From positions 558,001 to 622,000 of the forward strand of contig NZ_MWZD01000017.1 of assembly GCF_002982315.1 (NCBI RefSeq): a stretch of DNA of 64,000 nt, written 5' to 3'. The translations under genes and the position numbers were made by a program. This stretch comes from Leucobacter massiliensis (lineage in GTDB: Bacteria; Actinomycetota; Actinomycetes; Actinomycetales; Microbacteriaceae). Below are positions 1-13,631 of this stretch, in pieces; within the stretch, counting starts at the first letter, position 1, and the number at the start of each line of letters is the position of its first letter. The notes under the pieces were generated by a model. It searched no databases and had not been told where the DNA came from. It saw only the letters and a program-made list of their open reading frames with translations.

Positions 1-462
1 GGCTTCCTCTACACGGAGCCGATCCCCGCCGGCACGCTGCCCGCGCGGCAGCGTCGCGTGCCCTTCGACGAACTGCTCGGCGTGCAGGCCTCCCGCGTGG
101 TCGTCGTCTCGCCCGACCACCACTTCGAGGAATTCGTGAGCGTCGTCGAGAACCTCGGCCTCACCCACGTCTCCTACGCGGTCGGCAGCACCTCCTGGCT
201 CGACATCGCACCCGACGGCGTCACGAAGGCCAGCGCGCTCGAGGTCATCGCCGAGAAGACCGGCGTCGACCGCTCCCGCGTCTTCGCCGCCGGCGACGGC
301 CGCAACGACATCGACATGCTGCGCTGGGCCGCGCGACGCGGTGACGCCGTGGCCATGGGCCAGGCCACCCCCGATGTGCAGGCCGTCGCGAGCCGCGTCA
401 CCGGCACCATCGAGGAGGTCGGCCTGCTCACCGCGCTGCGCGAGCGCTTCGACTGGCTGTAG
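1..462 (+). CDS. HAD-family hydrolase, C-terminal part (5' end outside window)
   Basis: The reading frame is open from the first base and ends at 462, giving the last 153 residues. The segment AAGDGRNDIDML is HAD motif IV (GDxxND), whose aspartates bind Mg2+. The lysine of the upstream VTKASAL segment fits motif III. This arrangement is typical of Cof-type HAD phosphatases, which dephosphorylate sugar phosphates or similar small molecules in the cytoplasm. The substrate cannot be inferred. The gene is followed by tRNA-Ser on the same strand. The N-terminal nucleophile motif (DxDGT) is not in the window, so activity cannot be judged. Confidence 0.85.
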   Translation, partial: GFLYTEPIPAGTLPARQRRVPFDELLGVQASRVVVVSPDHHFEEFVSVVENLGLTHVSYAVGSTSWLDIAPDGVTKASALEVIAEKTGVDRSRVFAAGDGRNDIDMLRWAARRGDAVAMGQATPDVQAVASRVTGTIEEVGLLTALRERFDWL

Positions 463-530
463 CTCCGCTGGGGGGGCTGGCGAGCCCCGGACGGCCCGCG
501 ACGAACCGCGGCTTTGCTAAGCTCGACGGC

Positions 531-621
531 GGAGGGTTGTCCGAGCGGCCGAAGGAACTTGTCTTGAAAACAAGCAGGCGGTAACCCCGTCTCAGGGGTT
601 CAAATCCCCTACCCTCCGCCA
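531..621 (+). tRNA. tRNA-Ser(UGA), 3' end supplied by the integrated element
   Basis: Acceptor strands GGAGGGT (531-537) and ACCCTCC (611-617) pair, and 618 is the discriminator G. The anticodon stem CTTGT/ACAAG (558-562, 570-574) encloses loop CTTGAAA with anticodon TGA at 565-567. A long variable arm (GTAACCCCGTCTC region) and T-arm GGGGTTCAAATCCCC mark a class II serine tRNA. The sequence encodes CCA at 619-621. The displaced chromosomal copy of this 3' end at 11,557-11,616 is followed by TCC instead of CA, so the encoded CCA came with the integrated element. Confidence 0.95.
560..619 (+). repeat. attL: 60-bp direct repeat inside tRNA-Ser
   Basis: This 60-bp stretch runs from the anticodon stem of the tRNA to the first C of its CCA end. 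It is repeated without mismatch at 11,557-11,616. The sequence diverges immediately on both sides (T versus C before, C versus T after). Long identity to a tRNA 3' half at both borders of a region with a tyrosine integrase is the usual signature of site-specific integration. Confidence 0.92.
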
Positions 622-624
622 CGA

Positions 625-657
625 ATGCCCGGTCAGAAGCTATTTCTGGTCGGGCAT
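625..657 (+). terminator. Terminator hairpin after tRNA-Ser, carried by the element
   Basis: A 14-bp stem (625-638 with 644-657) including two G-U wobbles closes a 5-nt loop GCTAT. It is followed by CGTTCTTCC. It starts three bases after the CCA and is unrelated in sequence to the terminator behind the displaced tRNA end at 11,621-11,645. The element therefore brings its own tRNA terminator. Confidence 0.75.
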
Positions 658-1172
658 CGTTCTTCCTGCTCGAGCGCACTGAGTGGTGCCGTGGTACTCA
701 CGTGGTACTCGGGATACTGAATCGGGCTCATTGAGCTCATTGAGTCGCCGCGCTGCTGCCGCGCACTGGTGCATCTCGGATGTGCGCGCGTTTGCCGTCG
801 AACGTCTGCTCTCGTCCTTGTGCGCGTTTGCTGCGCAACGTTGCGCGGTCCAGTGCCGGCGTACACTGGTGGGCGTAGGGCCTCCCCGTGAAAGCGCCGA
901 AATAATGCGCCGGTTGAACTCGCGGGCTAGGGCACCGCACGGCGGGCCATGACAGGCAGTGCTCAGATCGTACAGCCCAGTCGTGGCTCTTGCTGTGTCT
1001 CGGGTCGACATGCGAAGGTGGTTCTAGGGGTCCCGCTGGGAGTGCGGAATAAGGCACCGACAGAAACCGGGGGACAGCCCCTACCGTCGAGGGCCGTTGC
1101 AGCCAGTTCACCATGGTCGAGAGACTGAGGACAGGCCAGCAGCGGCCCCTCGCTTGCGCTCTGTGCCCGTTT
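658..1172. other. Left-end region of the element without a convincing gene
   Basis: Beyond the tRNA terminator and the repeat pair at 692-711, no frame here shows a credible start, ribosome site or recognisable protein. The open frames on both strands are Arg- and Ala-rich and overlap one another. Two imperfect copies of TGTGCGCG-type sequence followed by GTTTGC lie near 780 and 820, followed by AACGTTGCGC, a partly palindromic stretch. This could hold the 3' end of the minus-strand transcript or a regulatory or origin site, but nothing proves it. Confidence 0.4.
692..711 (+). repeat. Left pair of 9-bp repeats, probable integrase arm-type sites
   Basis: GTGGTACTC occurs at 692-700 and again at 703-711, an 11-bp period. 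The same 9-mer, in pairs with the same period and orientation, occurs at the opposite end of the element upstream of the integrase (11,379-11,437). Position inside both att cores and the fixed spacing match arm-type binding sites of tyrosine integrases. Function is inferred. Confidence 0.6.
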
Positions 1173-1835
1173 TCAGGCCAGACGCCGGTTGTGTTCGGCG
1201 GCGAGCGCGGCCATATTCTCAGACGTTGGCCAGAACCCGCCCGTGGGGTTCGCGTCTCGCGCGTAATCAGCGCATGCGTCGAGTAGTGGGCAGCCTGAAC
1301 AGATCCGGGCGAGATGCCATGCCTCACCGGGCACGAGGGCGTCGAGGGTGAAGCGTCCGTCCTCGGCGCACTCTGGCACACTCGAGGCGAGCGCGGCGCG
1401 GAGGCGAGCCCACGGTGACCCATCACGAGAACGCGACGGTGGACGGCTTGGTGCGCTCGCCGCAGGGGTTGCCCCGACCACGGGCGACGCTCTACGAGAC
1501 TTCGTACTTACGGAGAGCAGATTGACGGTCCGCGGCTCGGCGGTGGCTTCTCCGACTAGCTCAGGGTCGTGCCCACTTTCGAACCAGGCAAGCGGGTCGG
1601 CCTCGAACTCGGCTCTTGCCGCCCGACCCTCTGGGGTCTGATTGCGGTTGTCTTGCTCGCAGCGACGACGAAACTCGGCGAGCAAGATCTCGTGCGCGAC
1701 AACACGCTCACCTTGCTGATTCCAGGTCATCGGCATGCCGGCCATGCGCCACTTGCGGATCGTCTGCGGGTGACGGTGCACGCGTTCTGCTTCTTGGTCG
1801 TAGGTGTAGAACTTCCGATTGGTGATCTGCCTCAC
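1173..1835 (-). CDS. Fusion of N-terminal HTH and C-terminal WhiB-like Fe-S domain
   Basis: The protein has 220 residues from a GTG start at 1835, which is preceded by an AAAGGG ribosome site. Residues 8-55 resemble the winged-helix DNA-binding domain of phage small terminases or excisionases (HPQTIRKWRMAGMP). A Ser/Pro/Ala-rich linker spans about 105-140. The C-terminus carries C156, C179-x2-C182 and C188 followed by YARDANPTGGFW. That is the four-cysteine plus G-[VIF]-W layout of WhiB-like [4Fe-4S] regulators. Known WhiB proteins are usually short single-domain regulators, and phage-encoded versions occur in actinophages. I infer a DNA-binding regulator of the element or its helper. It is the last gene of the minus-strand block. 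A TTG at 1880 would add 15 residues but has no ribosome site. Confidence 0.65.
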   Translation of the reverse strand: MRQITNRKFYTYDQEAERVHRHPQTIRKWRMAGMPMTWNQQGERVVAHEILLAEFRRRCEQDNRNQTPEGRAARAEFEADPLAWFESGHDPELVGEATAEPRTVNLLSVSTKSRRASPVVGATPAASAPSRPPSRSRDGSPWARLRAALASSVPECAEDGRFTLDALVPGEAWHLARICSGCPLLDACADYARDANPTGGFWPTSENMAALAAEHNRRLA

Positions 1836-1942
1836 GATCAGCCCTTTCCGCTCGCCCAGGATCGAGTGTAGACGCAGCAAAGCCCCGGCAGGCAGTAGTG
1901 CTCCACCAGGGCCTCGTGCGGTCAGAGAGAAGGCGATCCTCG

Positions 1943-2458
1943 TTAGCTCTGCTCCTCACCTCCGCCTACAGGCTGTGCGCGCAGTACGTCAGCGGCAGCG
2001 AGTAAGCCGGCTTCGAGGGACTGGATTAACGACACCGCGCCCTCTGTGTTCGGCTCGCGCTCAACAATTCGGGTGAGCTTATCGAACACGATCCCCGCCA
2101 TCGTGATCACGTGCCGCGCTACCTCGATCGGTGGACGCTCGAGAGTGTGCTCCGAATAGGTGTTGTCGCGGCCACCGAACGAGTACACCGTGTATGGCTC
2201 GTCGAGCTTGTCGAACATCGCCTCAACCGCGAGCAGCATCCGCTCAGCGAGCTCCTGCCGTTTCGCGGCAAGATCGATCTGACGAGCAGCTACAGCCTTC
2301 GCGACCTGCGTCCGGTCGAAGGTGAGTCCGTCCTGCTTCGCCCACTTCGACACCGTCGACTGATGTACCCCGAGCGCGGACGCGATAGCCCGCGTAGACA
2401 GCCCTCGAGCATGCAGTTCGCGCAGGCGTGCGCGTTTGTTCGTCATCGTCTCCGTCAT
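1943..2458 (-). CDS. HTH DNA-binding protein, small-terminase-like
   Basis: The protein has 171 residues. The ATG at 2458 overlaps the stop of the upstream gene (ATGA), and an AGAGGG ribosome site lies inside that gene, so the two are translationally coupled. Residues about 6-45 form a homeodomain-like HTH (LHARGLSTRAIASALGVHQS). The remainder is mostly helical with charged segments. Proteins of this kind occur in actinophages and related islands as terminase-small-subunit-like or regulatory DNA-binding proteins. The sequence does not tell which. A role in packaging or copy control of the element is speculation. Confidence 0.55.
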   Translation of the reverse strand: MTETMTNKRARLRELHARGLSTRAIASALGVHQSTVSKWAKQDGLTFDRTQVAKAVAARQIDLAAKRQELAERMLLAVEAMFDKLDEPYTVYSFGGRDNTYSEHTLERPPIEVARHVITMAGIVFDKLTRIVEREPNTEGAVSLIQSLEAGLLAAADVLRAQPVGGGEEQS

Positions 2459-3246
2459 CCGAACCATCCCTCTCGTGCGGCTAGCTCTTCTGTCCAGTTG
2501 GGGATCATCCCGAGGTCGGCTGCGACTTGTCCTGCATCTGACAGCGCCTCGTATTCCGGTGTTCCTTGCTCGGGGCCTTCGTAGCAGCCATGTCGGTTGA
2601 CTGAGCGGTAGAGGTTGGTGATGAGCGCAGAAGCCTGGCTCACGGTGAGGCGTGACCACTGCTCTATCTCGTGGAAGCTCGGCAGCTGGTTGTTGTTGTG
2701 AAGGTAGAGATCTTGGATGAGGTTCTGCTGTGCCTGCGTAGCTGCAATCTGTCGATTGGTTATCTCTGACGCGCGCGATCGGCTTGCCGGTTGCGCCTCA
2801 TACTGGTTGTTCCTATTGGTAGTTTCACTGGTAGTTTCTACAGTCCCTGCAGCATCTGCCTCTAACCCTGCAGTTTCCTGCAGGGGGTTAGCGGCAGTAT
2901 CTGCCTCTAACCCTGCGCTCACATTTCCGGTAGATGCGGCGCTGGTGGGCGTCAGCGTGTAGACGTTCGAGCGTCGCCCGCCTGCACCTTCACCGCCTCG
3001 ATAGCGGCTACTCCGCAGAATGAGGCCCGCGGCCTCGAGGCTCTTCGTTGCATCGCGCGCTGCCCGCTCGCTCAGGCTTGCCTCTTGCGCCAGCAGCTTG
3101 ATCCCTGGGTAGCATTCGCCGTTCTTGTCAGCGCGGGTCGCTAGCACGAGCAGCACCGCCTTCTCGGCGACCCGGAGGCCTGAGCGGCTGCGTGCCCACT
3201 CGACCCAGTAGAGCAGCGAGCCAGGCTTGCGTTCATGCTTCGTCAC
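2455..3246 (-). CDS. Winged-helix replication-initiator-like protein
   Basis: The protein has 263 residues from a GTG at 3246, which lies inside the 3' end of the upstream gene (14-bp overlap). Residues about 5-95 show the winged-helix pattern of phage or plasmid replication proteins: a helical region, then DKNGECYPGIKLLAQEASLS and SLEAAGLILRSSR as recognition helix and wing. The middle is low complexity and contains two imperfect copies of a GLEADxAA/AAG segment (DNA repeat near 2850-2925). The C-terminal part about 160-263 is helical and may contact a helicase. The middle repeats show a linker that tolerates length change. Function as replication initiator is inferred from the fold and its neighbours. 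Confidence 0.55.
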   Translation of the reverse strand: MTKHERKPGSLLYWVEWARSRSGLRVAEKAVLLVLATRADKNGECYPGIKLLAQEASLSERAARDATKSLEAAGLILRSSRYRGGEGAGGRRSNVYTLTPTSAASTGNVSAGLEADTAANPLQETAGLEADAAGTVETTSETTNRNNQYEAQPASRSRASEITNRQIAATQAQQNLIQDLYLHNNNQLPSFHEIEQWSRLTVSQASALITNLYRSVNRHGCYEGPEQGTPEYEALSDAGQVAADLGMIPNWTEELAAREGWFG

Positions 3247-3535
3247 CGCCTGATCCTTCCTTGGCCTCGTGCAGTTCGATCTCTGCGGTGACCATGCGAT
3301 CACGCATGAGCTCGCGGGCGGCGTCGAGATCGACCTCGCGCACGCTCATGAATACAGCGAACTGTGCGCGCGTGAGCGGGCTGCCGTCGGCCATGCGCAC
3401 ATGGTCGATCCCGCGCCCCTCGAGCGCCTCACGGACAGTGCGCATGTCGATGCGGGTGAGCAGCTCGACGGCTTTGGGGTTAGGCTGGTTGTGGATCTCG
3501 GAGGCCCCGCCATTGTGCGGGGTCTTCGCGTTCAT
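3233..3535 (-). CDS. Hypothetical protein of the element
   Basis: This is a 100-residue acidic-to-neutral protein without a recognised domain. Its ATG at 3535 overlaps the stop of the excisionase-like gene (ATGA), and its own 3' end overlaps the start of the replication-like gene. The three are clearly one operon. The C-terminal half is predicted to be helical and charged (VREVDLDAARELMRDRM). No membrane segment, signal peptide or metal site is visible. I do not recognise a family. Confidence 0.6.
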   Translation of the reverse strand: MNAKTPHNGGASEIHNQPNPKAVELLTRIDMRTVREALEGRGIDHVRMADGSPLTRAQFAVFMSVREVDLDAARELMRDRMVTAEIELHEAKEGSGGDEA

Positions 3536-3768
3536 CGGGCACCTGCCACAGCGAGCGGGGTGCCGACGGTTGCGAGACTCTCGGCGGTGACGCGAACACT
3601 CTTGCCGATCTTGCGTGCGTCGAGGTCGCCGCGACGGATCATTCGACGGATGGTGTCACGCGATACGGCGAGCGCCTGCGCGGCCTCGTCCATCGTCACA
3701 TAGGACGGTACGGTACCGAGCGAGTGCGGTGCGATTGGGGTGGTCTGGGGAGACATGAAAAACGCCAT
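3532..3768 (-). CDS. Excisionase-like HTH protein
   Basis: The protein has 78 residues. The segment YVTMDEAAQALAVSRDTIRR continuing to MIRRGDLDARKIGKSVRV is the winged-helix excisionase/AlpA (HTH_17) fold, covering almost the whole chain. Such proteins bend DNA at att sites to favour excision, or act as small transcription factors. It is first in the operon with the hypothetical and replication-like genes. The start is either ATG 3768 or ATG 3756. It is the intact counterpart of the broken excisionase-like gene at 4609-4801. Confidence 0.7.
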   Translation of the reverse strand: MAFFMSPQTTPIAPHSLGTVPSYVTMDEAAQALAVSRDTIRRMIRRGDLDARKIGKSVRVTAESLATVGTPLAVAGAR

Positions 3769-3881
3769 TCTGTGGGTACGTCAAAATCGACCGCCACAGA
3801 TTGGCGTCTGGATCCCCTGTCGGGGAACGCTGCCCATGATAGCAGAATGATGCAAGATCGGGCAGTGTATGCGCATTCTGG

Positions 3882-4541
3882 TTAGGCGCTGGGCGCCTCA
3901 ACGATCCGAACCGGAGCGCTTGTCACCATGCTGATATCTTCCTGGCGCTCTGTCTCCGTGCCACTGCGAAGCGCGTTCGCTTCGATCGCGGCCTGCCAGT
4001 AGCGCTCAAGTGCAGCGTCCACGCGTTCGCCTTCTCTGCCTCGCCGCTTTGCCGTACATCGTGGGCAAGCGAACGTGGCGGTCACGTGTCGCGTGGGGTC
4101 GGGTGCTACTGTTGGCGGTGTCCCATTGCCGCTCAGGTAGTCGGGATCGCCGAACAGTTCGTTGCTGCGTTTCCGTTGCTGCTTTTCTGCCGTAGCCGCG
4201 GCCCGCTCGGCTGCCAGTCGAGCCTTCACGTCGTCTTGGTTCACGGGGCGTCCGGTCTGGCCATCGATGCCCACTATTTGGCCGCCCACACTCTCGTCGG
4301 GGAACAGCACCCATGTGCGCCAGGCCCCCAACTGATACAAGTCGGCATGGCCTACCGTCGCAGCGGGGTGAGGATGCCGTGAGGATCCTTCGCATGAGAG
4401 GTAGATCCTGCTGCCCCTTGGCCGGCCGTTCTCGCGCGCTCCTGCGGTGACTGGTGCGGTGCCATAGACGCCGTCTTCCCGCCATCGGCCTGCATCTCGA
4501 GCTTCCGCCTCTCGGAGCCATTCTTCGAAGTGGTTCTGCAT
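3882..4541 (-). CDS. Hypothetical protein of the element
   Basis: The protein has 219 residues from ATG 4541. The N-terminal part contains aromatic residues and a stretch ending LGAWRTWVLFPDESVGGQIVG. The middle (about 100-130) is a Lys/Arg/Ala-rich helix. A single CPRC pair at about 160 could be half of a zinc ribbon, but I see no second pair. The family is not recognised. It lies between two excisionase-like loci on the same strand. The 113-bp gap downstream probably holds the promoter of the next operon. Confidence 0.5.
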   Translation of the reverse strand: MQNHFEEWLREAEARDAGRWREDGVYGTAPVTAGARENGRPRGSRIYLSCEGSSRHPHPAATVGHADLYQLGAWRTWVLFPDESVGGQIVGIDGQTGRPVNQDDVKARLAAERAAATAEKQQRKRSNELFGDPDYLSGNGTPPTVAPDPTRHVTATFACPRCTAKRRGREGERVDAALERYWQAAIEANALRSGTETERQEDISMVTSAPVRIVEAPSA

Positions 4542-4608
4542 GCCTCGCCTCCCGCATCTCTCTTCTCGAGGCGAACGCGACAGCGAATGTGTCGCGCTCG
4601 CCGCAGAG

Positions 4609-4801
4609 TCACTGCTGCTCGTCTCGTGTGGTCACTACCGTAGACCGAACCCACCGATCGACGTCGCCCTGCTCGTAGATAACGACCTTCGGAGTGGGCT
4701 TGTGATATCTCGGCCCCCGACCTTACGCGCGAAGCTCCTCAACGTTCCGCCACCTGAACAGGTGACAGCCAGACTGGTTCGGGGGTGTGTTTCTCGTTCA
4801 T
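4609..4801 (-). pseudogene. Broken excisionase-like HTH gene
   Basis: From an ATG at 4801 the frame reads MNEKHTPEPVWLSPVQVAER and then hits TGA. Shifting by one base restores VEELRA, which then meets TAA. The same frame then continues with GRGPRYHKPTPKVVIYEQGD and DRWVRSTVVTTRDEQQ to a TGA at 4609. The joined pieces match the AlpA/excisionase winged helix (LTPxEVAER ... GxGPRY ... Y...DVDRW). At least two lesions, a frameshift and a stop or small deletion around the turn of the HTH, break it. The intact excisionase-like gene at 3532-3768 may have made it dispensable. Confidence 0.6.
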
Positions 4802-4814
4802 GCCACGTGTTCGC

Positions 4815-5504
4815 TCATGCGGCGCTGACGGCGTGGGGCGCGTTGTTGAGGCGGTCGCATTCGGCTTGCATCCACGCGTAGTCGTTCGCGAGATCCTGGA
4901 TCATGCGCAGCCCCGCAGGCCCCTCGGGAACATCAGCCCTCATGGACGCGCCGGCAGCCCACTTGCCGTCGTAGCGGTAACCGGTGACGAGGTAATCGCC
5001 GGTGTCGATACCCTCGAGCTCACACCCGAGGAACTGCTCACCGCCGACCCACTCGTGCCACAGTTTTACACAGCCGGACTCGTGGCACTCGCGCAACTCG
5101 TTGCAGTGGTCGCCGTCGCGCACTTCCCACCACTTCCGACAGATCCAGTTGCCGTCCTCGCGGAGCCGCCACATATCGCCATTGAACAGCCCTGCCTTCG
5201 CCTCTTGGATCAGCCGGTGCGCCTTCTTGAGGTCGTCCGAGGACGCGCCGGAGTGCAGGTGCACGTTGAAATGGCGCTTCTCTGATGGGCTGGCAACGAT
5301 CGCGAACGCCAGCCGGAACACGGTACCGGTAGTATCCGCTTCCTGCCTCACCGGCCTCTCGGGATGGAACGTGTAGACGATCGGGAGATCTGCGAGGTTC
5401 GCAGCCGCCCAGGTCGCCGATTCGGGAGTGATTTCGCGGGACGGCGTGAACTGCAGGAGATCCACGTCGGGCACGGCACTGGTGGTTGCGAGGGTGCTAC
5501 TCAT
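4815..5504 (-). CDS. Hypothetical protein of the element
   Basis: The protein has 229 residues from ATG 5504, which overlaps the stop of the upstream gene (ATGA). It is rich in Trp and Cys in the middle (about 118-165, including CRKWWEVRDGDHCNELRECH and a further Cys). This suggests a compact, possibly metal-binding domain. No membrane segment is visible. The family is not recognised. Its position at the head of the minus-strand operon, divergent from a small HTH gene, resembles early genes of phage-like elements. Confidence 0.55.
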   Translation of the reverse strand: MSSTLATTSAVPDVDLLQFTPSREITPESATWAAANLADLPIVYTFHPERPVRQEADTTGTVFRLAFAIVASPSEKRHFNVHLHSGASSDDLKKAHRLIQEAKAGLFNGDMWRLREDGNWICRKWWEVRDGDHCNELRECHESGCVKLWHEWVGGEQFLGCELEGIDTGDYLVTGYRYDGKWAAGASMRADVPEGPAGLRMIQDLANDYAWMQAECDRLNNAPHAVSAA

Positions 5505-5806
5505 CGAGCCACCTCCTCGCGCGCTGAACGGCGCTCTGCGGCCATTTCACGGGTGTGGGTGTCGAGCAGTGCCGTTCCCGCGGTTGCGGCCGCCGTGGGG
5601 GCTGCGGCGAGCGCTCGCGCCTCTCTCAGGAAGAGTGGCGTGGGGTTCAGGCCGGGCATCTCGAGCGTGACGCAGTCCACGAACAGATCGTCGACGGTGG
5701 CGCCTTCCCAGAACGTGGCGCTCGACTCGACACAGACGGTTCCCTGCTCAGTGTCGAGTTGGTGCGACGTGTCGAACTCCGCGGTCGGGTGGGTAGGGTT
5801 GTGCAT
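5501..5806 (-). CDS. Hypothetical protein, first gene of the minus-strand operon
   Basis: The protein has 101 residues from ATG 5806, chosen because AGGAGG lies eight bases upstream. The N-terminal half is acidic and contains a WEGATVDDLFVDCVTLEMPG segment. The C-terminal half is Ala/Arg-rich and probably helical. No known domain is recognised. It overlaps the next gene by four bases. The 150-bp gap to the divergent HTH gene contains an interrupted hairpin (about 5834-5872) and AT-rich sequence near 5930 that probably holds both promoters. Confidence 0.55.
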   Translation of the reverse strand: MHNPTHPTAEFDTSHQLDTEQGTVCVESSATFWEGATVDDLFVDCVTLEMPGLNPTPLFLREARALAAAPTAAATAGTALLDTHTREMAAERRSAREEVAR

Positions 5807-5956
5807 GATGCGATCCTCCTGTGATCGTGTCCACGCCCCCGGCCTGCTCCAACAGGCGCGGGGGTCTCGCCTTCTTCGGCGTGAGTCGAGCATGCCACAG
5901 ATCAGTCATGATGTCGAGCGCTCGCATAATAATGGTATGTCTTGTAGCCTGATCGA

Positions 5957-6160
5957 GTGGCGAAACAGACAGCACTAGAACGACTCGAGCAACTCGGTAA
6001 ACAGCGTCGCGAACATCAGGCGGCACTCGATGCGCTCGCCCTACCGCTCAAGGTCGCGATCCTTGATGCGCTCGCCGCAGGTGCCAGCGCTACCGAGGTC
6101 GCGGAGATCACTGGCCTGCATCGGTCGAGGGTCTATCAAATCCGCGACGGGAAGCGTTGA
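5957..6160 (+). CDS. Small HTH protein, probable element regulator
   Basis: The protein has 67 residues from GTG 5957. After a charged helix (about 5-25), residues about 35-65 form a helix-turn-helix: LDALAAGASATEVAEITGLH then RSRVYQIRDGKR. It is transcribed divergently from the minus-strand replication-type operon, the usual place for a repressor or Cro-like switch protein. It ends just before the membrane-protein gene and shares its strand, so it may also drive the cargo transcript. The regulator role is inferred from size, fold and position. Confidence 0.6.
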   Translation: MAKQTALERLEQLGKQRREHQAALDALALPLKVAILDALAAGASATEVAEITGLHRSRVYQIRDGKR

Positions 6161-6165
6161 GGCAG

Positions 6166-7494
6166 ATGACTGCAGTAGGCGAAGCGCTGGCGGCCAATGC
6201 ATTGGACAGCCGCGAGCTAGCGACGCTGACCATTCTTGGCTTGATAGCTTTTCTCGCTTTGCGGAAACCGGCAACCAGGCGGACGCTCAAGAGAGAACTT
6301 AAGAATCTTGCAATTCAGCTTGCCAGCCCAAAGCTCTGGATCCCTTTCGCGATCTACTTTCTATGGGTATTCGGATGTATTTATTTTGCGAGTCGAATTG
6401 GGCTCTGGGGATGGGCTCTCACAAAGGACACGATCCTAGTTGTCTTTGGTGTAGGTCTGGTCCTGTTTGCAAAAGCGACAGAGCAAAAGAACGGCCGCGA
6501 ACTCTTCAAGAGTGTTTACCGTGAAGCCATTGGAGTTTCGGCGCTACTCGTCTTCTACCTGAACCTCGCACCGCTTCCCTATCTAGCGGAGCTACCTCTA
6601 CAGGTTGTGATAATCGTGCTCGTGTTCGCAGATGCCCAGGATGACGGACGGAAGTGGCCTCGGGGCATGTTGGTGCTGGCAGGGTTGGGGCTTCTGGCGT
6701 GGACCTCGTTCCAAGTCGTTGAAAGCTGGGCAACCCTGAACCACGTCGAACTGCTCATGAGATTTGCTCTCTCGATCTGGCTTCCTCTGGCACTATTTCC
6801 GCTGCTGTATCCATTCGCATTCTTCGCCGCGATGGAGAGCGCAGCGGTACGCACAAGCTTCGGTGGAGAACCCTGGACGAGGCGCTCCCGACTGGCGTTC
6901 TTTCTCGGGCTAAGGGGTTCTCTTCACCTGGCCGCCTCGTTTAACGGGCGCTATCGAGCAATTCGTGACGCCAAGACTTTTCGAGAAGGCCGCGCCTACA
7001 TGAAATACTTCCGGTCGGATGTCGAGGAGCGTGAAACCCTGCGCGAAAGACAGCGGCACACTCTTGATGTCTGGACCAACAAGGGCGGTACCGATAAGTG
7101 GGGTGCTCAACTTGATCGTAGAGAATTTGATGGCACCAAACGGGCACTTCGCTTTATTCAGGCTTCCCAGATGGGGTGGTTTGAACGGCAAGCGAATCAG
7201 TTTTGGGGTCCGGAGAAGGCAGAGCTAATTATCCAGCCCACCGCGCGCTTTGAGCTTCCTCCAAACCATGGAATTCATGTGGAGGTCACGGACGACCGCA
7301 AGGTCTGGCGCGCTTGGCGCAGGCTGCCAAGTGGCTGGATACTTGGCATAGGCGGTCAGCACAGAACTGACACCCAGTACTACTCTGCATCAGCTTCTCC
7401 GAACACGTGGCCCGGAGCGGACGACTGGATAAGCGAATTGGAGCTAGACCTGCCGCCAGATTGGGCTCAGGATGATAGCGTCTACCCGGCCTGA
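6166..7494 (+). CDS. Multi-pass membrane protein with soluble C-terminal domain (element cargo)
   Basis: The protein has 442 residues from ATG 6166, preceded by GAGG. Hydrophobic segments lie at about 20-34, 58-78, 88-104, 120-137, 143-156, 167-184 and 199-222. A cytoplasmic-looking C-terminal domain of about 215 residues follows, rich in Arg, Trp and aromatic residues. No family is recognised. The coding region has visibly lower GC and more A/T-ending codons than the host genes, which is a sign of a separate origin. A membrane-anchored protein in the cargo slot of an integrative element is a common layout for anti-phage systems, but nothing here proves that. A TTG at 6157 is an alternative start. 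Confidence 0.7.
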   Translation: MTAVGEALAANALDSRELATLTILGLIAFLALRKPATRRTLKRELKNLAIQLASPKLWIPFAIYFLWVFGCIYFASRIGLWGWALTKDTILVVFGVGLVLFAKATEQKNGRELFKSVYREAIGVSALLVFYLNLAPLPYLAELPLQVVIIVLVFADAQDDGRKWPRGMLVLAGLGLLAWTSFQVVESWATLNHVELLMRFALSIWLPLALFPLLYPFAFFAAMESAAVRTSFGGEPWTRRSRLAFFLGLRGSLHLAASFNGRYRAIRDAKTFREGRAYMKYFRSDVEERETLRERQRHTLDVWTNKGGTDKWGAQLDRREFDGTKRALRFIQASQMGWFERQANQFWGPEKAELIIQPTARFELPPNHGIHVEVTDDRKVWRAWRRLPSGWILGIGGQHRTDTQYYSASASPNTWPGADDWISELELDLPPDWAQDDSVYPA

Positions 7495-7791
7495 CTTGTG
7501 CAGAGTAAACTGTGCTTGCCAACAAACGAGAGAAGCGGCTGGGCTGCCCGGACTTTCGTCTAGTGAACCGCCTGCCGCTTCTGACTACAGGGTGCCGCCT
7601 CAGATTCATCGCTTTGGTTTGGGGCCTGCTTCTCGATATGCCTCGGTCGCCCGCTAGTTGCGCTTAGCTCTTGGCACACCGTGGGGGAGCAGTATCCTGC
7701 GCAAGGGCGTCTATGAGGCATTTGCGGTAGGTGTCGGCATTCTGATGACTTCCCGGTAGGTTGTGAGCATTGATCAGTCAGAGAGGTTCTC
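7495..7791. other. Intergenic region with a long-loop hairpin
   Basis: No credible gene is seen in these 297 bases. AGAAGCGGC (7531-7539) pairs perfectly with GCCGCTTCT (7574-7582) around a 34-nt loop. It may be a terminator-like structure behind the membrane protein gene or part of a small RNA. The end of the region carries the ribosome site AGAGAGG for the gene at 7792. A promoter should lie here if that gene is transcribed alone. Confidence 0.4.
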
Positions 7792-8586
7792 ATGCTCAAA
7801 GATTTTGTCTATTTCGACGAAGAGATGGTGTTGAAGTTTGCTTCTCAGCTTGATGGAGGGCAGCGCACACGCTCGACTGAACGGCAATCTAAAGGGCGTC
7901 GAGGCAGGCTTTCGGCCTCGCTTAAGGGTGTGGGAGTAGAGGGGTCGAGAGAGTCTTCCGAGGGCGTTGAGGTGGAGTTTTCCGACGATCCTTATGCGGC
8001 ATTCGACCGTCTCGTCGCAGCAGGTTCAGATCGTGCAGATGAACTTTCTTGGGTCGAAGTGAACGACCCTGCAGTTGACCTCAAAGGTGTAGGCCGCGGA
8101 TTCACAGTGCTTGGCGAGGCTGATTTTGCTGTTACCCCTTTCAGTAGGGTTCTAGGTAGCAAGGAGCAGTTGCGCGGGCTTGCTCAGCTGTCGACGTTGA
8201 TGTCTAGTTTCGGGCCACTAATGGGCCAGGAACTAACCTCATCGTCTATAGACCCAGTGCAGGTGGAGGGCGTCAGCAGACTCGCTGATTCGATGGGCGA
8301 TCAAATCAGTGTTACTGGTTTTTTCGCTGACAGTGATTGGTCAGTAGCTGGGACTTTGAGTAGTGACGTAAATATCGAGGATGTTGATGGCCCACTCGAG
8401 TTCGTAGGGAAGATCGTCGAAGTAATCCCTGAAGGCACCCACAAATCGCTGATGGCCTTGCCAGGGCTCTCTCTTCTTAGCCGTGAACAGCGGCGAAAAA
8501 TGCAGAACGCTCCCAAAGAGGGCGACGAAGAGAACTGGATCAGTGGCCCTGCAATAGTTCTCAAGTTCCTCGCCATCTATCGTTAG
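7792..8586 (+). CDS. Cytoplasmic protein of unknown function, DUF6414-like N-terminus (element cargo)
   Basis: The protein has 264 residues from ATG 7792 with ribosome site AGAGAGG. The opening MLKDFVYFDEEMVLKFASQL with the following DGG resembles proteins annotated as DUF6414 (an xFxYLDExxLxSLxSQLxGG start), but I am recalling this pattern, not measuring it. The rest alternates acidic segments with two predicted beta-rich stretches. The C-terminus is basic and then hydrophobic (SGPAIVLKFLAIYR). Lower GC than host genes groups it with the preceding membrane protein. Possible partner of that protein in a defence or exclusion function; this is inference. Confidence 0.6.
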   Translation: MLKDFVYFDEEMVLKFASQLDGGQRTRSTERQSKGRRGRLSASLKGVGVEGSRESSEGVEVEFSDDPYAAFDRLVAAGSDRADELSWVEVNDPAVDLKGVGRGFTVLGEADFAVTPFSRVLGSKEQLRGLAQLSTLMSSFGPLMGQELTSSSIDPVQVEGVSRLADSMGDQISVTGFFADSDWSVAGTLSSDVNIEDVDGPLEFVGKIVEVIPEGTHKSLMALPGLSLLSREQRRKMQNAPKEGDEENWISGPAIVLKFLAIYR

Positions 8587-8700
8587 AATGCCAGCGAATA
8601 GAGCTCGTGCAGCCATTGCGCGATCGTTAATCGCCTAGCGCGGAATCCCTCGAGCCTCGCGATAGTCAAAGTTGCCTCTTCCCAGATATCGTCATGTTTC

Positions 8701-9249
8701 ATGAACGCTGGTGAAATCGTGATCGCGGCTGTCGGTGCACTAGGCGGCGTCGGAGGAGCACTCTTCGCGTGGGTGCAAGCCAAGGCAGCAGTCGGTAGTC
8801 GCGATGACGCTAAGGCAGCGCAGGAAGATGCCGAGCTTGCACAGCGACGGGCAGAGGCGGCTCGCGACGAAGCTCTCGAGCTTGCGCGGAAAGCCACGGC
8901 AGCAGCCGAACGTCAGGCGGCAGCTCAAGAGGAAGCGAACCGCCTCGAGATCGAAGCCCGCACCCCTCCAGCGTGGAGCGGCCCCGAATACGTGAGCGAG
9001 AAAGTGCGTGCGATGGTCAATACCTCCGGCGCGTCCATCGAAGTCATTTCCATCGAGGTCGTCCCTGAAACAGTGGGAGGATTCGTGCAGGTTCAGGACG
9101 GACAAGCCCCTCCCTACGAAGTGCCCGAAGGTGGATCGCTACGGTACTACCAGATTCGAGCGTACGGACCTGGGGCCGATCTAATCGCCGTGCAGTGGCG
9201 TAACGTAGGCACCACCGAGTCCCGGGAACTGCGAATCCCTTTGATCTAG
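8701..9249 (+). CDS. Single-TM coiled-coil protein (element cargo)
   Basis: The protein has 182 residues from ATG 8701. Residues 4-24 are one hydrophobic helix (EIVIAAVGALGGVGGALFAW). Residues about 30-90 are an Ala/Glu/Arg heptad coiled coil. Residues about 92-182 look like a small all-beta domain. The layout resembles proteins with an N-terminal anchor and an exposed sensor domain, but no family is recognised. No clear ribosome site precedes the ATG. It lies between the DUF6414-like gene and the convergent DUF3800-like gene. Confidence 0.6.
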   Translation: MNAGEIVIAAVGALGGVGGALFAWVQAKAAVGSRDDAKAAQEDAELAQRRAEAARDEALELARKATAAAERQAAAQEEANRLEIEARTPPAWSGPEYVSEKVRAMVNTSGASIEVISIEVVPETVGGFVQVQDGQAPPYEVPEGGSLRYYQIRAYGPGADLIAVQWRNVGTTESRELRIPLI

Positions 9250-9290
9250 TCGCTGGCGAATTGCTAGAGGCACCTTGCGCTCGCCGCAGT

Positions 9291-9911
9291 TCAGCCGAGT
9301 TCGTGCACCCGCGCTGCGTTCTCGAACGGTGTGAACCACGACCTGTCCCGGCCCATAAGCCGCTGACGGTACGCCCACGCCAACAAATCCGGCAGCCCCA
9401 GCAGAGGCTCCGCAGACGGGCGAGCATGATGCTCCGTTACGTCACGAGGCAGCCGGCCCGCACGCCGCAGATCGCCGAACGTGAACCGGTCACGCCGGTT
9501 GTACTCCGCCTCACGGTGCTGGTCGAACACGAACAAGCCCACGCCATCCTCAGCATGCAGCAGCGGGGCGATGTGCTCGATGCAGCGACGCCGCGCAGCA
9601 TGCCCAAGCGAATCACCCGGCGCGATCGGTGCGGACACCACGAGATCCAGACCGTCGTTCTCCCTTGCGGCGAGCGCGATCCCACCTCGCAGCGTCACCA
9701 CCTCGCGACTATGGAACATCGGGGCAGCATGCATCGGCTCGCCGTCGTAGTGCGCAGTGAGAGCCTCACGAGTCTCCACGAGCCTGTCGCGCGACACAAC
9801 GGCGGTAGCGAGCACGTAGAACGTCCGGTCACCCTCGACCTCGTAAGACTCGTCCAGGAACGCCACAGGGGCGCTGGTGGCGCGGTAGAGGCGCTGTAGC
9901 TCCGGGCCCAT
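9291..9911 (-). CDS. DUF3800-like protein (RNase H-like fold)
   Basis: The protein has 206 residues from ATG 9911, chosen because AGGAGAAG lies directly upstream. An ATG at 9926 would add five residues but has no ribosome site. Near the N-terminus VAFLDESYEVEGDRTFYVLA matches the DUF3800 pattern (Y/F-hydrophobic-DES, then a beta strand). Near the C-terminus LLGLPDLLAWAYRQRL matches its xxxxDLxAxxxR ending. DUF3800 proteins are common in mobile elements and defence islands and have a predicted RNase H-like nuclease fold. The role here is unknown. It points toward the cargo genes. Confidence 0.6.
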   Translation of the reverse strand: MGPELQRLYRATSAPVAFLDESYEVEGDRTFYVLATAVVSRDRLVETREALTAHYDGEPMHAAPMFHSREVVTLRGGIALAARENDGLDLVVSAPIAPGDSLGHAARRRCIEHIAPLLHAEDGVGLFVFDQHREAEYNRRDRFTFGDLRRAGRLPRDVTEHHARPSAEPLLGLPDLLAWAYRQRLMGRDRSWFTPFENAARVHELG

Positions 9912-9931
9912 TCTTCTCCTGAACATAGTGC

Positions 9932-9967
9932 GACCCCCAGGACGCTCTAGGCGATTTCCTGGGGGTC
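9932..9967 (-). promoter_or_regulatory. Perfect hairpin in the leader of the DUF3800-like gene
   Basis: GACCCCCAGGA (9932-9942) pairs perfectly with TCCTGGGGGTC (9957-9967), an 11-bp stem with a 14-nt loop. It lies 20 bases upstream of the ATG at 9911. It could be an operator, an attenuator or a transcription stop protecting the gene from upstream reading. I cannot distinguish these. Confidence 0.45.
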
Positions 9968-10108
9968 ATGGCTCCTCACCGGCGGGGCCTTACGGCCTGG
10001 CGGGCTACCCGAGCTGCACCAACAGCATAACACCGCTGAGAGTCAGAGGGAACCGTTGGGAGTCTGAGGATGACGAGCCCGCAGCGCCCGCCGCAAAGCC
10101 TCGCCTGT

Positions 10109-10163
10109 CATAGGTGACATGTACGTGACCATAGGTGCCGTGTACGAGAATGCATCACCTATG
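10109..10163. repeat. Direct and inverted repeats at the 3' end of the integrase gene
   Basis: CATAGGTGnCnTGTACG occurs at 10,109-10,125 and 10,130-10,146, a 21-bp period or two helical turns. CACCTATG, the inverse of its first eight bases, occurs at 10,156-10,163 across the integrase stop codon. The spacing suggests a protein-binding site cluster, such as excisionase sites or an operator, but its partner is unknown. Confidence 0.45.
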
Positions 10164-11361
10164 ATGCGTCGCGCTTCGCCCGCTGCTCGTCGAGCGACAC
10201 CGGCAGTGGGGGAGCCGTAGGCGGCTTCGGAAGCTGCGCAGCGAGCGCAGCATCACGCCCCGTCGTGTGCTGGTAGAGCGCGGCCGCGGCCTGCGTCGAG
10301 TGCCCTCCTCGAGCCTGCAGCTCACGCACTGTCGCGCCGGTCTGCCCGTACATGGTGAGAGCAAGCCCCCGAAGGTCGTGCAGGCGCACCACAACGTCCT
10401 TCCCGATGCCGGCGTACTCGCGAGCCTTGCGCCACGGATGATCAATCGCAGCGTTCGTAAGATACTCATCCTGCTCAGCAGAGAACAGCAGTGACGTGGG
10501 GAACTTCCCCACGTGCGACTCGAGGTGCGCGTCGATCGTTGGCGTCATCCATGCAGGCAGGGGAGTCGTCCGATTCCCGGCCTCCGACTTCGGCGGGACG
10601 ACATGCCACTCGCCCTTGACTCGCACCGCCTGCCGGGCCACCGACACCACGTAGTAGTCCCGCGCCCGATCGTCAGCGTCAGGCGTGATCTTCGTAAGGT
10701 CGCAGCGTCGGAGCGCACGCACCTCACTCTTACGAGGGCCACCGTAGGCGGCGAGCCACGGCCACAGGGCGAGCTTCGGCCTGTTCGTGTCGAACCACTG
10801 CACGATCAGAGCGAACTCCTCGAGCGTAGGGATCCGAGTCTTCCGTCCAGTCTTCGAACGCGTGAGCTCAGCCGCTACCGGGTTCTTCTCCACCAGATCA
10901 TCCCGCTTGGCCTGCTCGAACACCGCATGCATGAAGGATGCCTCACGAGCAGCCGACGTCGCAGTGACTTCCGCTCGCTTCGAGTGCCACGCCCGAACCA
11001 TGGCAGGGGTGATCGCATCGAGGCGCTCGCCGCAGAACTCAGCAAGGGACTTCTCGAGATACCACTCGTTCAGCGACTTCGTGGTGGCGGCTCGAGCCTT
11101 GCCGTGCCTGTCGCGTTTCTGCTCGATGTAGGTGCGAGCGTACGGGCCAAACGTCTCGTGCTGCACGTGCTTCGGGTTCTTCCACTTGCCGCGCTGAATG
11201 TCGGCGCGCGTGCCCGCGAGGAATGCGCGGGCATCTCCCTTGGCGTCGAACGTCGTCGGTGCATTGAACCGCTCGCCCTGATGGGTGTAGCGGGCACGGT
11301 AGCGGCCTGAGGGGAGCTCGTCGATGATTCCCCAGCTTTCACGGGATGCTTTGCGCGCCAT
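10159..11361 (-). CDS. int: Tyrosine recombinase / integrase
   Basis: The protein has 400 residues from ATG 11361. An N-terminal arm-binding segment (about 8-65) is followed by a SAM-like core-binding domain (about 70-165). The catalytic domain has R210 (GGPRKSEV), H328-x-x-R331 (LHDLRG), H354 (GGHST) and nucleophile Y363 (ALYQH). All five conserved catalytic positions are therefore present. It should cut and rejoin the 60-bp tRNA-Ser att cores. The gene lies 195 bp inside attR, and paired 9-bp repeats lie immediately upstream of its start, so the integrase may repress its own promoter. The open frame extends upstream to 11,484, but that part overlaps these repeats and has no ribosome site. 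Confidence 0.93.
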   Translation of the reverse strand: MARKASRESWGIIDELPSGRYRARYTHQGERFNAPTTFDAKGDARAFLAGTRADIQRGKWKNPKHVQHETFGPYARTYIEQKRDRHGKARAATTKSLNEWYLEKSLAEFCGERLDAITPAMVRAWHSKRAEVTATSAAREASFMHAVFEQAKRDDLVEKNPVAAELTRSKTGRKTRIPTLEEFALIVQWFDTNRPKLALWPWLAAYGGPRKSEVRALRRCDLTKITPDADDRARDYYVVSVARQAVRVKGEWHVVPPKSEAGNRTTPLPAWMTPTIDAHLESHVGKFPTSLLFSAEQDEYLTNAAIDHPWRKAREYAGIGKDVVVRLHDLRGLALTMYGQTGATVRELQARGGHSTQAAAALYQHTTGRDAALAAQLPKPPTAPPLPVSLDEQRAKRDAS

Positions 11362-11378
11362 GTTCGGGGCCTCCGGTT

Positions 11379-11437
11379 GTGGTACTCGCGTGGTACTCAG
11401 ACACCCGAGACGGGGTCGTGGTACTTCCGTGGTACTC
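11379..11437 (+). repeat. Right pairs of 9-bp repeats, probable integrase arm-type sites
   Basis: GTGGTACTC is found at 11,379-11,387, 11,390-11,398 and 11,429-11,437, and GTGGTACTT at 11,418-11,426. They form two pairs, each with an 11-bp period, all in the same orientation as the pair at 692-711. They sit between the integrase start and attR and overlap the expected integrase promoter. Confidence 0.6.
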
Positions 11438-11556
11438 AGTATGCCACCTCGTGCATGCTCGCGCCATGTACTGCAGATCCGCATGATTACAACGGCAATG
11501 AGCCAAGTGGCCTCGATCCCATACGATGCAAGGGGAGTCGAATGGATGCTGAAATC

Positions 11557-11616
11557 TGTCTTGAAAACAAGCAGGCGGTAACCCCGTCTCAGGGGTTCAA
11601 ATCCCCTACCCTCCGC
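11557..11616 (+). repeat. attR: displaced 3' half of tRNA-Ser
   Basis: This is a perfect copy of 560-619. Its continuation TCC, then a chromosomal-type terminator hairpin, shows that this is the original end of the tRNA gene pushed aside by integration. The original gene therefore lacked an encoded CCA. It has no 5' half and cannot form a tRNA. Confidence 0.9.
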
Positions 11617-11836
11617 TCCAGACCCCGCTGCATGGCAGCGGGGTCTTCCGCTACGGGCAGGGGCTCATCGAGAACCCCTCACTGGCGCCGAGGGCGGCGC
11701 CAGCGGCGTGCGCGCGCAACGCGATGCGTTGCCCCAAGCGCGCGGCCGGGGTTCAAATCCCCTACCCTCCGCTCCAGACCCCGCTGCATGGCAGCGGGGT
11801 CTTCCGCCACGGGCGGGGGCTCATCGAGAACCCCTC
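11592..11836 (+). repeat. Tandem duplication of the tRNA-Ser T-arm/acceptor end plus terminator
   Basis: An 89-bp unit at 11,592-11,680 returns at 11,748-11,836 (156-bp offset) with two mismatches. Each copy holds the T-arm, the 3' acceptor strand, TCC and the terminator hairpin. The second copy begins exactly at the T-arm. The 67 bases between contain a GGCGCC-rich inverted repeat. The second copy is not a functional tRNA. It may be a duplication of the chromosomal flank or a scar of earlier insertion and loss at this att site. Confidence 0.75.
11621..11645 (+). terminator. Original tRNA-Ser terminator hairpin
   Basis: GACCCCGCTGC pairs perfectly with GCAGCGGGGTC around the loop ATG, followed by TTCCGC. 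It starts five bases after attR. It is duplicated at 11,777-11,801. Confidence 0.75.
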
Positions 11837-11863
11837 GACCGGGCGCGAGGGCGCCTTCGCGCA

Positions 11864-12031
11864 CTACTCGTCGAGGATGATCTCGCTGGCGCGGAGCGCG
11901 CGACGCTCCGCCTCTTCGAGCTCGAGCACGGTGCCGTCCGTGCCGAGCCAGTACCAGGCACTCAGATCCGGTCCCGGCGCGTCGCGGCGGGTCAGCGTGT
12001 AGAGGACCCCGTCCACGTCTTTGGTGTTCAT
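11864..12031 (-). CDS. Small conserved-looking hypothetical protein
   Basis: The protein has 55 residues from ATG 12031, with a weak GGAG close upstream. A WYWLGTDGTVLELEEAERRA core suggests a small beta-hairpin plus helix. It is acidic and has no signal or membrane segment. Host-like GC and its place just outside attR make it a chromosomal gene and not element cargo. Longer versions of this frame have no support. Confidence 0.5.
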   Translation of the reverse strand: MNTKDVDGVLYTLTRRDAPGPDLSAWYWLGTDGTVLELEEAERRALRASEIILDE

Positions 12032-12090
12032 GCTCCGAATCCTAGACGCTTCTCCGGCCCCGCGAGAAACACGGACCCGGCATCGTCCGG

Positions 12091-13434: not shown

Positions 13435-13585
13435 GTTCTTCTCCGCTCGTATCGCTGGTCGCAGTCCCGGGAACGACCCTGTGCGCGCCGAGGATGCGTG
13501 CGGCGGGCGGTGAGTGATCGACCGGGCAGGACCAGCCAAGCGCAGCGGGTCCCGAGAGCACCAATAGTGATTCGAGGTCCCCTGA

Positions 13586-13600
13586 ATCTGATTTTCAGAT
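13586..13600. promoter_or_regulatory. LysR-type operator upstream of the monooxygenase gene
   Basis: ATCTGATTTTCAGAT has arms ATCTGA and TCAGAT. It differs at one position from the palindrome beside the lysR start (14,587-14,601). Both have the T-N11-A character expected of LysR-family sites. A weaker CTGAT-N5-ATCAG repeat follows at 13,613-13,627. Confidence 0.6.
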
Positions 13601-13631
13601 GGAGGTGCGTGGCTGATATCTGATCAGCGTA

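Follow-up and report, generated by a model that had tools for sequence, protein, structure and literature searches.

Small elements that reside in tRNA genes, such as the 11,188-bp NC_006910 of Micromonospora rosaria (which we take to be pMR2), combine a replication-like gene with an integrase beside the attachment (att) site, and that site consists of the 3' part of the tRNA gene. A different structure behind tRNA genes is the rtT (rttR) repeat of Escherichia coli, which stands in tandem behind tyrV and tyrT and combines copies of the tRNA tail with an inverted arm and hairpins. Both kinds of structure have counterparts in a 64,000-nt stretch of Leucobacter massiliensis (assembly GCF_002982315.1, contig NZ_MWZD01000017.1, positions 558,001 to 622,000; hereafter the window), where an 11-kb element is integrated at tRNA-Ser(UGA). 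The best combined explanation of this locus, to which we give a probability of about 0.8, is that a tyrosine-integrase element has swapped the 3' end of the tRNA gene, and that the end it displaced belongs to an rtT-like unit that is itself a small insertion.

Other short repeats offer partial parallels. Mycobacterial interspersed repetitive units (MIRU) are small actinobacterial repeats that stand in tandem at gene ends, and casposons, which carry Cas1, insert at tRNA 3' ends with target duplication; we know of no inverted gene-derived arm in either. Repetitive extragenic palindromic (REP) sequences, including the CGTC- and GTAG-tagged palindromes, share with the Leucobacter units the form of short palindromes at gene 3' ends, and those tagged with CGTC have an 8-9 bp stem, a 4-5 nt loop and a CCA-like tail according to PMC3733652.

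Exchange of the tRNA-Ser(UGA) 3' end

The only tRNA called by ARAGORN in the window is tRNA-Ser(UGA). Both the call and the sequence bear out the original prediction that the intact gene at 531-621 encodes its CCA and is followed by a hairpin at about 625-657, and the two 60-bp repeats it described, 560-619 and 11557-11616, are indeed identical (100%) and lie 10,997 bp apart. The repeat comprises the tRNA bases up to, and not including, the final CA. The features at the two ends of the element are:

531-621, plus strand: intact tRNA-Ser(UGA), 5' part from the host and 3' end from the element, crossover within 560-619, encoded CCA end
560-619, plus strand: left att repeat, 60 bp, 100% identical to 11557-11616
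622-660, plus strand: terminator-like hairpin 3' of the intact tRNA, of a type also present in 9 of 50 relatives
691-710, plus strand: two GTGGTACTY sites at the left end, putative integrase arm sites
11379-11437, plus strand: four GTGGTACTY sites at the right end, putative integrase arm sites
11557-11616, plus strand: right att repeat, the displaced host tRNA 3' end, without CCA; the 25 bases at its end (11592-11616) form tail copy 1
11620-11646, plus strand: host terminator hairpin 1

The 11-kb stretch is an integrated tyrosine-recombinase element, ordinary for its kind: a tyrosine integrase adjoins the att site, its start lying 196 bp from the right repeat on the element's side, and direct repeats of the tRNA 3' part leave the gene whole. 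The motif GTGGTACTY occurs six times in the 64 kb, counting both strands, and every occurrence lies at one of the element's two ends, against 0.53 expected from single-base composition alone. To the right of the element stand genes for an FAD oxidoreductase and a LysR protein, and the same run of genes starts 0.4-1.8 kb behind tRNA-Ser in three relatives (G005, G033 and G050), in which no second tail was found in the 14.7-16.2 kb searched behind tRNA-Ser. This synteny identifies the right side of the element as host DNA. The intact tRNA ends G-CCA, and the right copy reads on as CTCC with another terminator.

The element integrated in the 3' half of a Leucobacter tRNA-Ser(UGA) through an attP that supplies the gene's final 60 bp together with the CCA and a terminator of a type native behind this tRNA in several Leucobacter, a tRNA end presumably captured from a host. 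A crossover inside the 60 bp then rebuilt the gene with borrowed parts and left the old end, without CCA, on the far side.

How unusual this exchange is can be judged from the 3' flank of tRNA-Ser(UGA) in 50 other Leucobacter genomes, a comparison that excludes the window itself as well as G038 (no match) and G041 and G043 (tRNA-Ser(UGA) not called). CCA is encoded in 30 of these relatives and not in the other 20. The window-type hairpin, GCCCGGTCAGAA..TTCTGGCCGGGC, stands behind the same tRNA in nine, three with CCA and six without; a tenth similar hairpin, in G042, was missed by the pattern, recognised by eye and grouped with the nine as a tree label. A long second tail copy was not found at any of the nine in the 2.5-16 kb searched, four of the loci being free of any repeat and five having just 13-15-nt T-arm matches about 1.6 kb off. 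The hairpin had been thought to occur only with the element, a claim that these nine relatives contradict; its presence at loci without a long second tail copy marks it as a type of terminator native to Leucobacter, which the element has on board. An empty site with both CCA and hairpin was what the original prediction had named as evidence against itself, and G014 provides it, having CCA with a near-identical hairpin and no second tail in 15.6 kb. Its three matches to PF00589, the tyrosine type of integrase to which these checks in relatives were confined, all lie on contigs other than that of the tRNA (C9).

The CCA state itself is labile. On a 46-row tree of a gene neighbouring tRNA-Ser(UGA), presumably of the HAD type, parsimony requires 13 changes, at least 6 of them on well-supported branches; this is a single-gene tree of 407 columns with one very long row and 17 of 43 inner branches weak, and it lacks 5 of the 51 loci, G014 included. 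On it the window's sister is G050 (SH-aLRT 97), which encodes CCA and has a different terminator; G014 is a more distant relative.

Two of the 50 relatives besides the window, G009 and G030, have a 22-27-nt tail copy 8-11 kb off and a changed flank, a count that covers only elements shorter than the stretches searched behind tRNA-Ser. In both, a tyrosine integrase (PF00589) adjoins the tRNA, and their elements differ from that of the window. In G009 the intact tRNA lacks CCA, and the copy 10.8 kb off bears CCA together with the flank of the sister genome G010; thus, the element there removed CCA. In G030 CCA is found on both sides of an 8-kb interval, and the displaced flank resembles that of G019. 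Over the window, G009 and G030, the terminator changed in all three and CCA in two of the three, in opposite directions. The claim that the element altered the 3' end of the tRNA therefore stands insofar as CCA and terminator were exchanged, and fails insofar as the change was held to be special to the element or new to the host.

The CCA swap is a by-product of tRNA integration that runs both ways, and it is probably neutral. That the element evolved to improve the tRNA, adding CCA and a better terminator and so changing the maturation of tRNA-Ser, would account for the difference in CCA and terminator between the left and right copies; the idea is nevertheless improbable, since CCA is absent in 20 of the 50 relatives and changes often, the G009 element removes it, the G030 element leaves it unchanged, and several tRNA genes of the host (Ser-CGA, Ser-GGA, Leu-UAA and Arg-CCU) likewise lack it, so that CCA addition is presumably needed in any case. 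Still less credence, indeed hardly any, attaches to a mere duplication of the tRNA end without a mobile element. A partial duplication of the tRNA tail does exist here, in the 156-bp unit described below, but such an event leaves unexplained the integrase, excisionase-like and replication-like genes, the arm-like sites at both ends and the synteny past the right repeat. Integration by a tyrosine-integrase element, which can toggle CCA templating either way, is also one simple source of the patchy actinobacterial CCA pattern. That pattern is described in PMC5143459, where a word search of the text for integrat-, mobile and phage gave no match.

A structured repeat family at the displaced end

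The displaced end was correctly described as having another continuation (CTCC) and another terminator, yet it is more than a terminator. The stretch 11592-11680, made up of 25 tRNA bases, the terminator and flank, recurs at 11748-11836 (89 nt, 98% identical, period 156), and within 11592-11836 a tail copy and the terminator come first, followed by the tail in reverse complement, a pair of covarying hairpins and the tail copy again. Beyond tail copy 1 and terminator hairpin 1, the parts are:

11655-11678, plus strand: inverted arm, imperfectly complementary to the tRNA tail; folding predicts that it pairs with tail copy 2
11681-11748, plus strand: repeat core of two hairpins with strong covariation; covariance model, 90.5 bits
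11748-11772, plus strand: tail copy 2, T-arm and acceptor 3' strand
11776-11836, plus strand: terminator copy 2 and second inverted arm, with at most the start of another core behind

The 68-nt core and the second tail are predicted to fold into one closed structure. The fold of 11617-11778 has a z of -5.7, none of 200 shuffles being as stable, and -3.5 with the terminator removed. In RNA form the arm is predicted to pair with tail copy 2, so that a long stem closes the hairpins, and a second tail so paired would keep a free tRNA-tail fragment from forming. Units of this kind also follow tRNA-Ser(UGA) in G027, G045, G047 and G052. Because the displaced host end is the first part of such a unit, integration separated the tRNA from its repeat unit as well.

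The E. coli repeats provide the closest comparison. In the tyrV-rttR region of MG1655 tail copies recur every 178 bp, and each of three units has GGGGAAGGATGAGAAGCTTCGA, complementary to the tRNA tail at 19 of 22 positions, a fit reached by none of 1000 shuffles that keep single-base composition only. The folded E. coli unit closes likewise, but with a z of only -2.0, 6 of 200 shuffles folding as well. The Rfam RtT model (RF00391), which finds its three matches in E. coli as a positive control, has no match at E≤1 within 11500-11950, and no Rfam model matches at its gathering score across 1-14000. The window unit is rtT-like in architecture and is not a member of the rtT sequence family; moreover, the Leucobacter family is spread over many tRNAs and protein genes, unlike the E. 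coli rtT repeats.

The displaced host end is part of a family of structured repeats that are dispersed and copy tRNA tails. A DNA search with the unit found members in the host at Ser-GGA, Ser-CGA, Tyr (a partial unit), Thr-CGU, Leu-UAA and Leu-CAA, and in relatives at Gly and Ser tRNA genes. An alignment and covariance model were built from 25 cores found through a tRNA-linked query, many of them tRNA-linked themselves, so the tRNA share of the copies given below may be somewhat inflated. Within the core, 94.2% of cells pair as compared to 76.2% in shuffles, and double changes are seen in 13 of the 18 pairs. Covariation scores 0.441, with 0.138 for shuffles, none of 500 scoring as high, and slid versions reach at most 0.113; a measure of further pair types is weaker, being equalled in 5 of 500 shuffles.

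The model has 18 matches in the host at E≤0.1, ten of them below 1e-5, of which eight are at known tRNA tails (two of them in tandem behind Arg-CCU), one has T-arm-like tails on both sides but no gene called there, and one lies elsewhere. Of the 54 Leucobacter genomes, 28 match the model at E≤1e-3. From 95 copies listed at E≤1e-5, with tandem copies counted separately, 90 were taken and 89 analysed, one being skipped for its orientation. A called tRNA gene lies within 330 nt upstream on the same strand in 31 of the 89, covering 12 anticodons, and nine more have a T-arm motif flush with their 3' edge without a called tRNA gene. Matches are rare beyond the genus, in 2 of 150 genomes of a family sample (E≤1e-4) and 1 of 297 of an order sample (E≤1e-3), the host counted in each; these searches used stricter filters, with which weak members may be missed.

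Tandem core pairs also occur away from tRNA genes, on host contigs C5 and C15 (stretches L139, L140, L142 and L143). In G114, of another genus of the family, tandem cores stand directly behind tRNA-Leu(UAG) (L146, L147), and in a gammaproteobacterial metagenome-assembled genome (MAG) two tandem units with a period of about 150 bp stand behind tRNA-Leu(CAG) (L252, about 6062-6280, minus strand), with a similar second hairpin and scores of 34-36 bits. A tRNA-Ser(act) called by ARAGORN near 103,300 of host contig C9 (L136, 1501-1597; L114, 788-893) consists of a core and a T-arm-like tail copy, so that repeat units can produce false tRNA calls and mislead tRNA finders into false tRNA genes.

Among the literature matches listed, seen as titles and abstract openings and with subscription journals mostly uncovered, no description of repeats of this kind behind many tRNA genes was noticed. 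The short palindrome behind tRNA genes of an archaeon, reported in PMC5217627, is a different thing, and a match in PMC2717098 was discarded, being limited to primer letters. The displaced repeats matter more than the element that exposed them, for with them rtT, long a curiosity of one E. coli locus, becomes open to comparison: copies number in the dozens, many tRNAs are involved, relatives with and without a unit are at hand, and the structural rule is clear, so that origin and function are testable.

Origin of the repeat units

Direct repeats (score ≥15; 15-97 bp, median 43.5) flank 62 of the 89 copies, and in 49 of the 62 the downstream copy lies within 2 nt of the core. Among copies not at tRNAs, flanking repeats are present in 28 of 49 as compared to 1 of 290 random pairings, and in 17 of those 28 an open frame of 50 codons or more has its stop codon inside the repeat region. 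Flanking repeats and stop codons together indicate that units are often placed at gene 3' ends, and that the gene end is present twice.

Relatives without the unit are found at individual loci. At Ser-CGA the host alone among 30 loci has a unit (the first 130 nt were compared; 32 nt in one), and G040 has the same terminator and an arm-like stretch with the core absent. At the 3' end of an htpX-like gene, a unit or remnant is present in 6 of 19 readable loci, and only there does an arm, as judged by eye, follow right after the stop codon; 11 of the 30 loci lacked the search motif and were excluded, and 21 further matches had no locus. The name htpX, and purF for another gene mentioned below, are assigned from the protein ends. 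Because of the flanking repeats and of relatives without the unit, the units behave as insertions, which would act at the 3' ends of tRNA and protein genes and duplicate the gene end.

The inverted arm was compared with the reverse complement of its own tRNA tail in 27 first units behind called tRNAs, that of the window not among them. Over the whole tail and with softer gap costs, the mean for the own tRNA is 10.5 against 7.0 (sd 0.34), a value reached in none of 20,000 permutations, and with one unit for each of the 12 anticodons it is 10.3 against 6.4, again with 0 of 20,000.

Several points weigh against the reading of the locus as a mobile element that has displaced a small insertion. The mobility of the 11-kb element is read from its integrated anatomy. 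Of the 89 repeat copies, 27 lack a flanking repeat of score ≥15, and 49 stand away from tRNAs. The fit of the arm is uneven, and the strong result came only from the second of two tests; the stricter first one, on the acceptor side alone, gave an own mean of 6.0 against 4.4 with the own tRNA first in 8 of 27, the best fits being at Leu-UAA, Thr-CGU, Arg-CCU and some Ser and Gly genes. At Ser-CGA the 3' flanks differ throughout, so there is no base-exact empty site, and no enzyme is known for moving the repeat units.

The strongest competing view is that the units are an old, vertically inherited 3'-end module, a terminator or regulatory RNA, that is often lost and does not move. Strong structural conservation, near confinement of the family to one genus in the searches made, and the recurrence of units at a given gene from one species to another (purF- and htpX-like ends) all agree with it, and we regard it as unlikely though deserving of real weight. 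It sits poorly with the recurrence of one core at numerous unrelated genes, with arms that match the individual tRNAs, with duplicated gene ends flush with the core, and with the Ser-CGA unit of the host, absent at 28 of 29 other loci and a remnant at the 29th. Far less plausible are REP or REPIN-type repeats moved by a RAYT (Y1) transposase, even given the GC-rich palindromes at gene 3' ends and an unpaired CGTG or CGTC ahead of hairpin 2 in many copies. Most of the 25 cores have a bulged, two-part stem of 12 pairs and a loop of about 3 nt, unlike the stem, loop and tail of the CGTC families as given in PMC3733652, and the units further differ from REP in their variable-length gene-end duplications and gene-fitted arm. 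Y1_Tnp matched in 0 of 54 genomes at E≤1e-5, its positive control having matched in 5 of 14. On the form of the stem and this absence of Y1 transposase matches, the REP/RAYT candidate was rejected.

Insertion of the units, which we prefer, calls for a mechanism, and here we can offer only a tentative proposal: a free DNA end in the 3' part of a gene might be extended over a copy of the core, fold back on its own tail and be filled in. Fold-back and fill-in would yield the inverted arm and the duplicated end in one event; repeated template switching at hairpins, or slow homogenisation of an old module, might do so otherwise. More speculative, and in our judgement rather doubtful, is the broader idea that the Leucobacter units, E. 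coli rtT and the tRNA-Leu units of the MAG and G114 are one kind of minimal mobile element, targeting RNA 3' ends, those of tRNAs above all, by core extension and fold-back, each copy having arms from the host gene and leaving that gene intact.

Genes of the element

The element's annotated open reading frames (ORFs) are:

1173-1880, minus strand: ORF with a weak WhiB-like C-terminus (profile matches)
1943-2590, minus strand: helix-turn-helix (HTH) protein, phrog_5536, function unassigned (Pfam, PHROG)
2455-3246, minus strand: replication-initiation-like protein, HTH_36 and phrog_1032 (Pfam, PHROG)
3532-3768, minus strand: HTH_17, excisionase-like (Pfam, PHROG)
6157-7494, plus strand: 445-aa ORF without a family match (Pfam, PHROG, PADLOC, NCBIfam)
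7792-8586, plus strand: DUF6414 protein (Pfam)
10159-11361, minus strand: tyrosine integrase, PF00589 and phrog_1; chosen start 11361, longer ORF from 11484

No capsid or transfer genes were clearly recognised among the 14 ORFs of the element (Pfam and PHROG; 9 of the 14 also NCBIfam), in agreement with the original prediction. Packaging or capsid-hijack genes, as expected of a phage satellite, were likewise not clearly recognised, the product of 1943-2590 being phrog_5536 with weak terminase-family matches through its HTH domain (E 3e-4 to 1e-3) that are not trusted. Nor do we trust a weak match of ORF 8701-9249 to a PHROG 'tail' family (E 0.0013) or a Replic_Relax match of 2455-3246 below the cut-off (E 0.0048). 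As for an actinomycete integrative and conjugative element (AICE) or other conjugative element, neither a DNA translocase nor a relaxase was found above the cut-off in the same ORF set, a negative that concerns recognisable families and leaves room for unrecognised ones. The window element thus differs from tRNA elements of the NC_006910 type in having no recognised transfer gene, and its integrase is 30.6% identical to that of NC_006910. PADLOC identified no defence system among nine element proteins, with one weak Csa3 match (E 0.0041). The DUF6414 protein lies downstream of the 445-aa ORF, in the middle of the element, as cargo without a PADLOC match.

Close relatives of the integrase are scarce. 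At E≤1e-30 it has relatives in 2 of 54 Leucobacter genomes, the host and G043, and at E≤1e-60 in 4 of 299 genomes of a family sample, host counted; the best found in genus and family are 42-49% identical. One contig scan for close relatives gave nine pattern matches, none confirmed, and all plasmid and phage integrase matches are below 60% identity.

A second, smaller element is present in the host at tRNA-Val(GAC), on contig C5 at about 272,164-278,849 (stretch L070, 7165-13849). Its copies lie 6,651 bp apart, its exact att repeat is shorter, and its integrase is 33-38% identical to that of the window.

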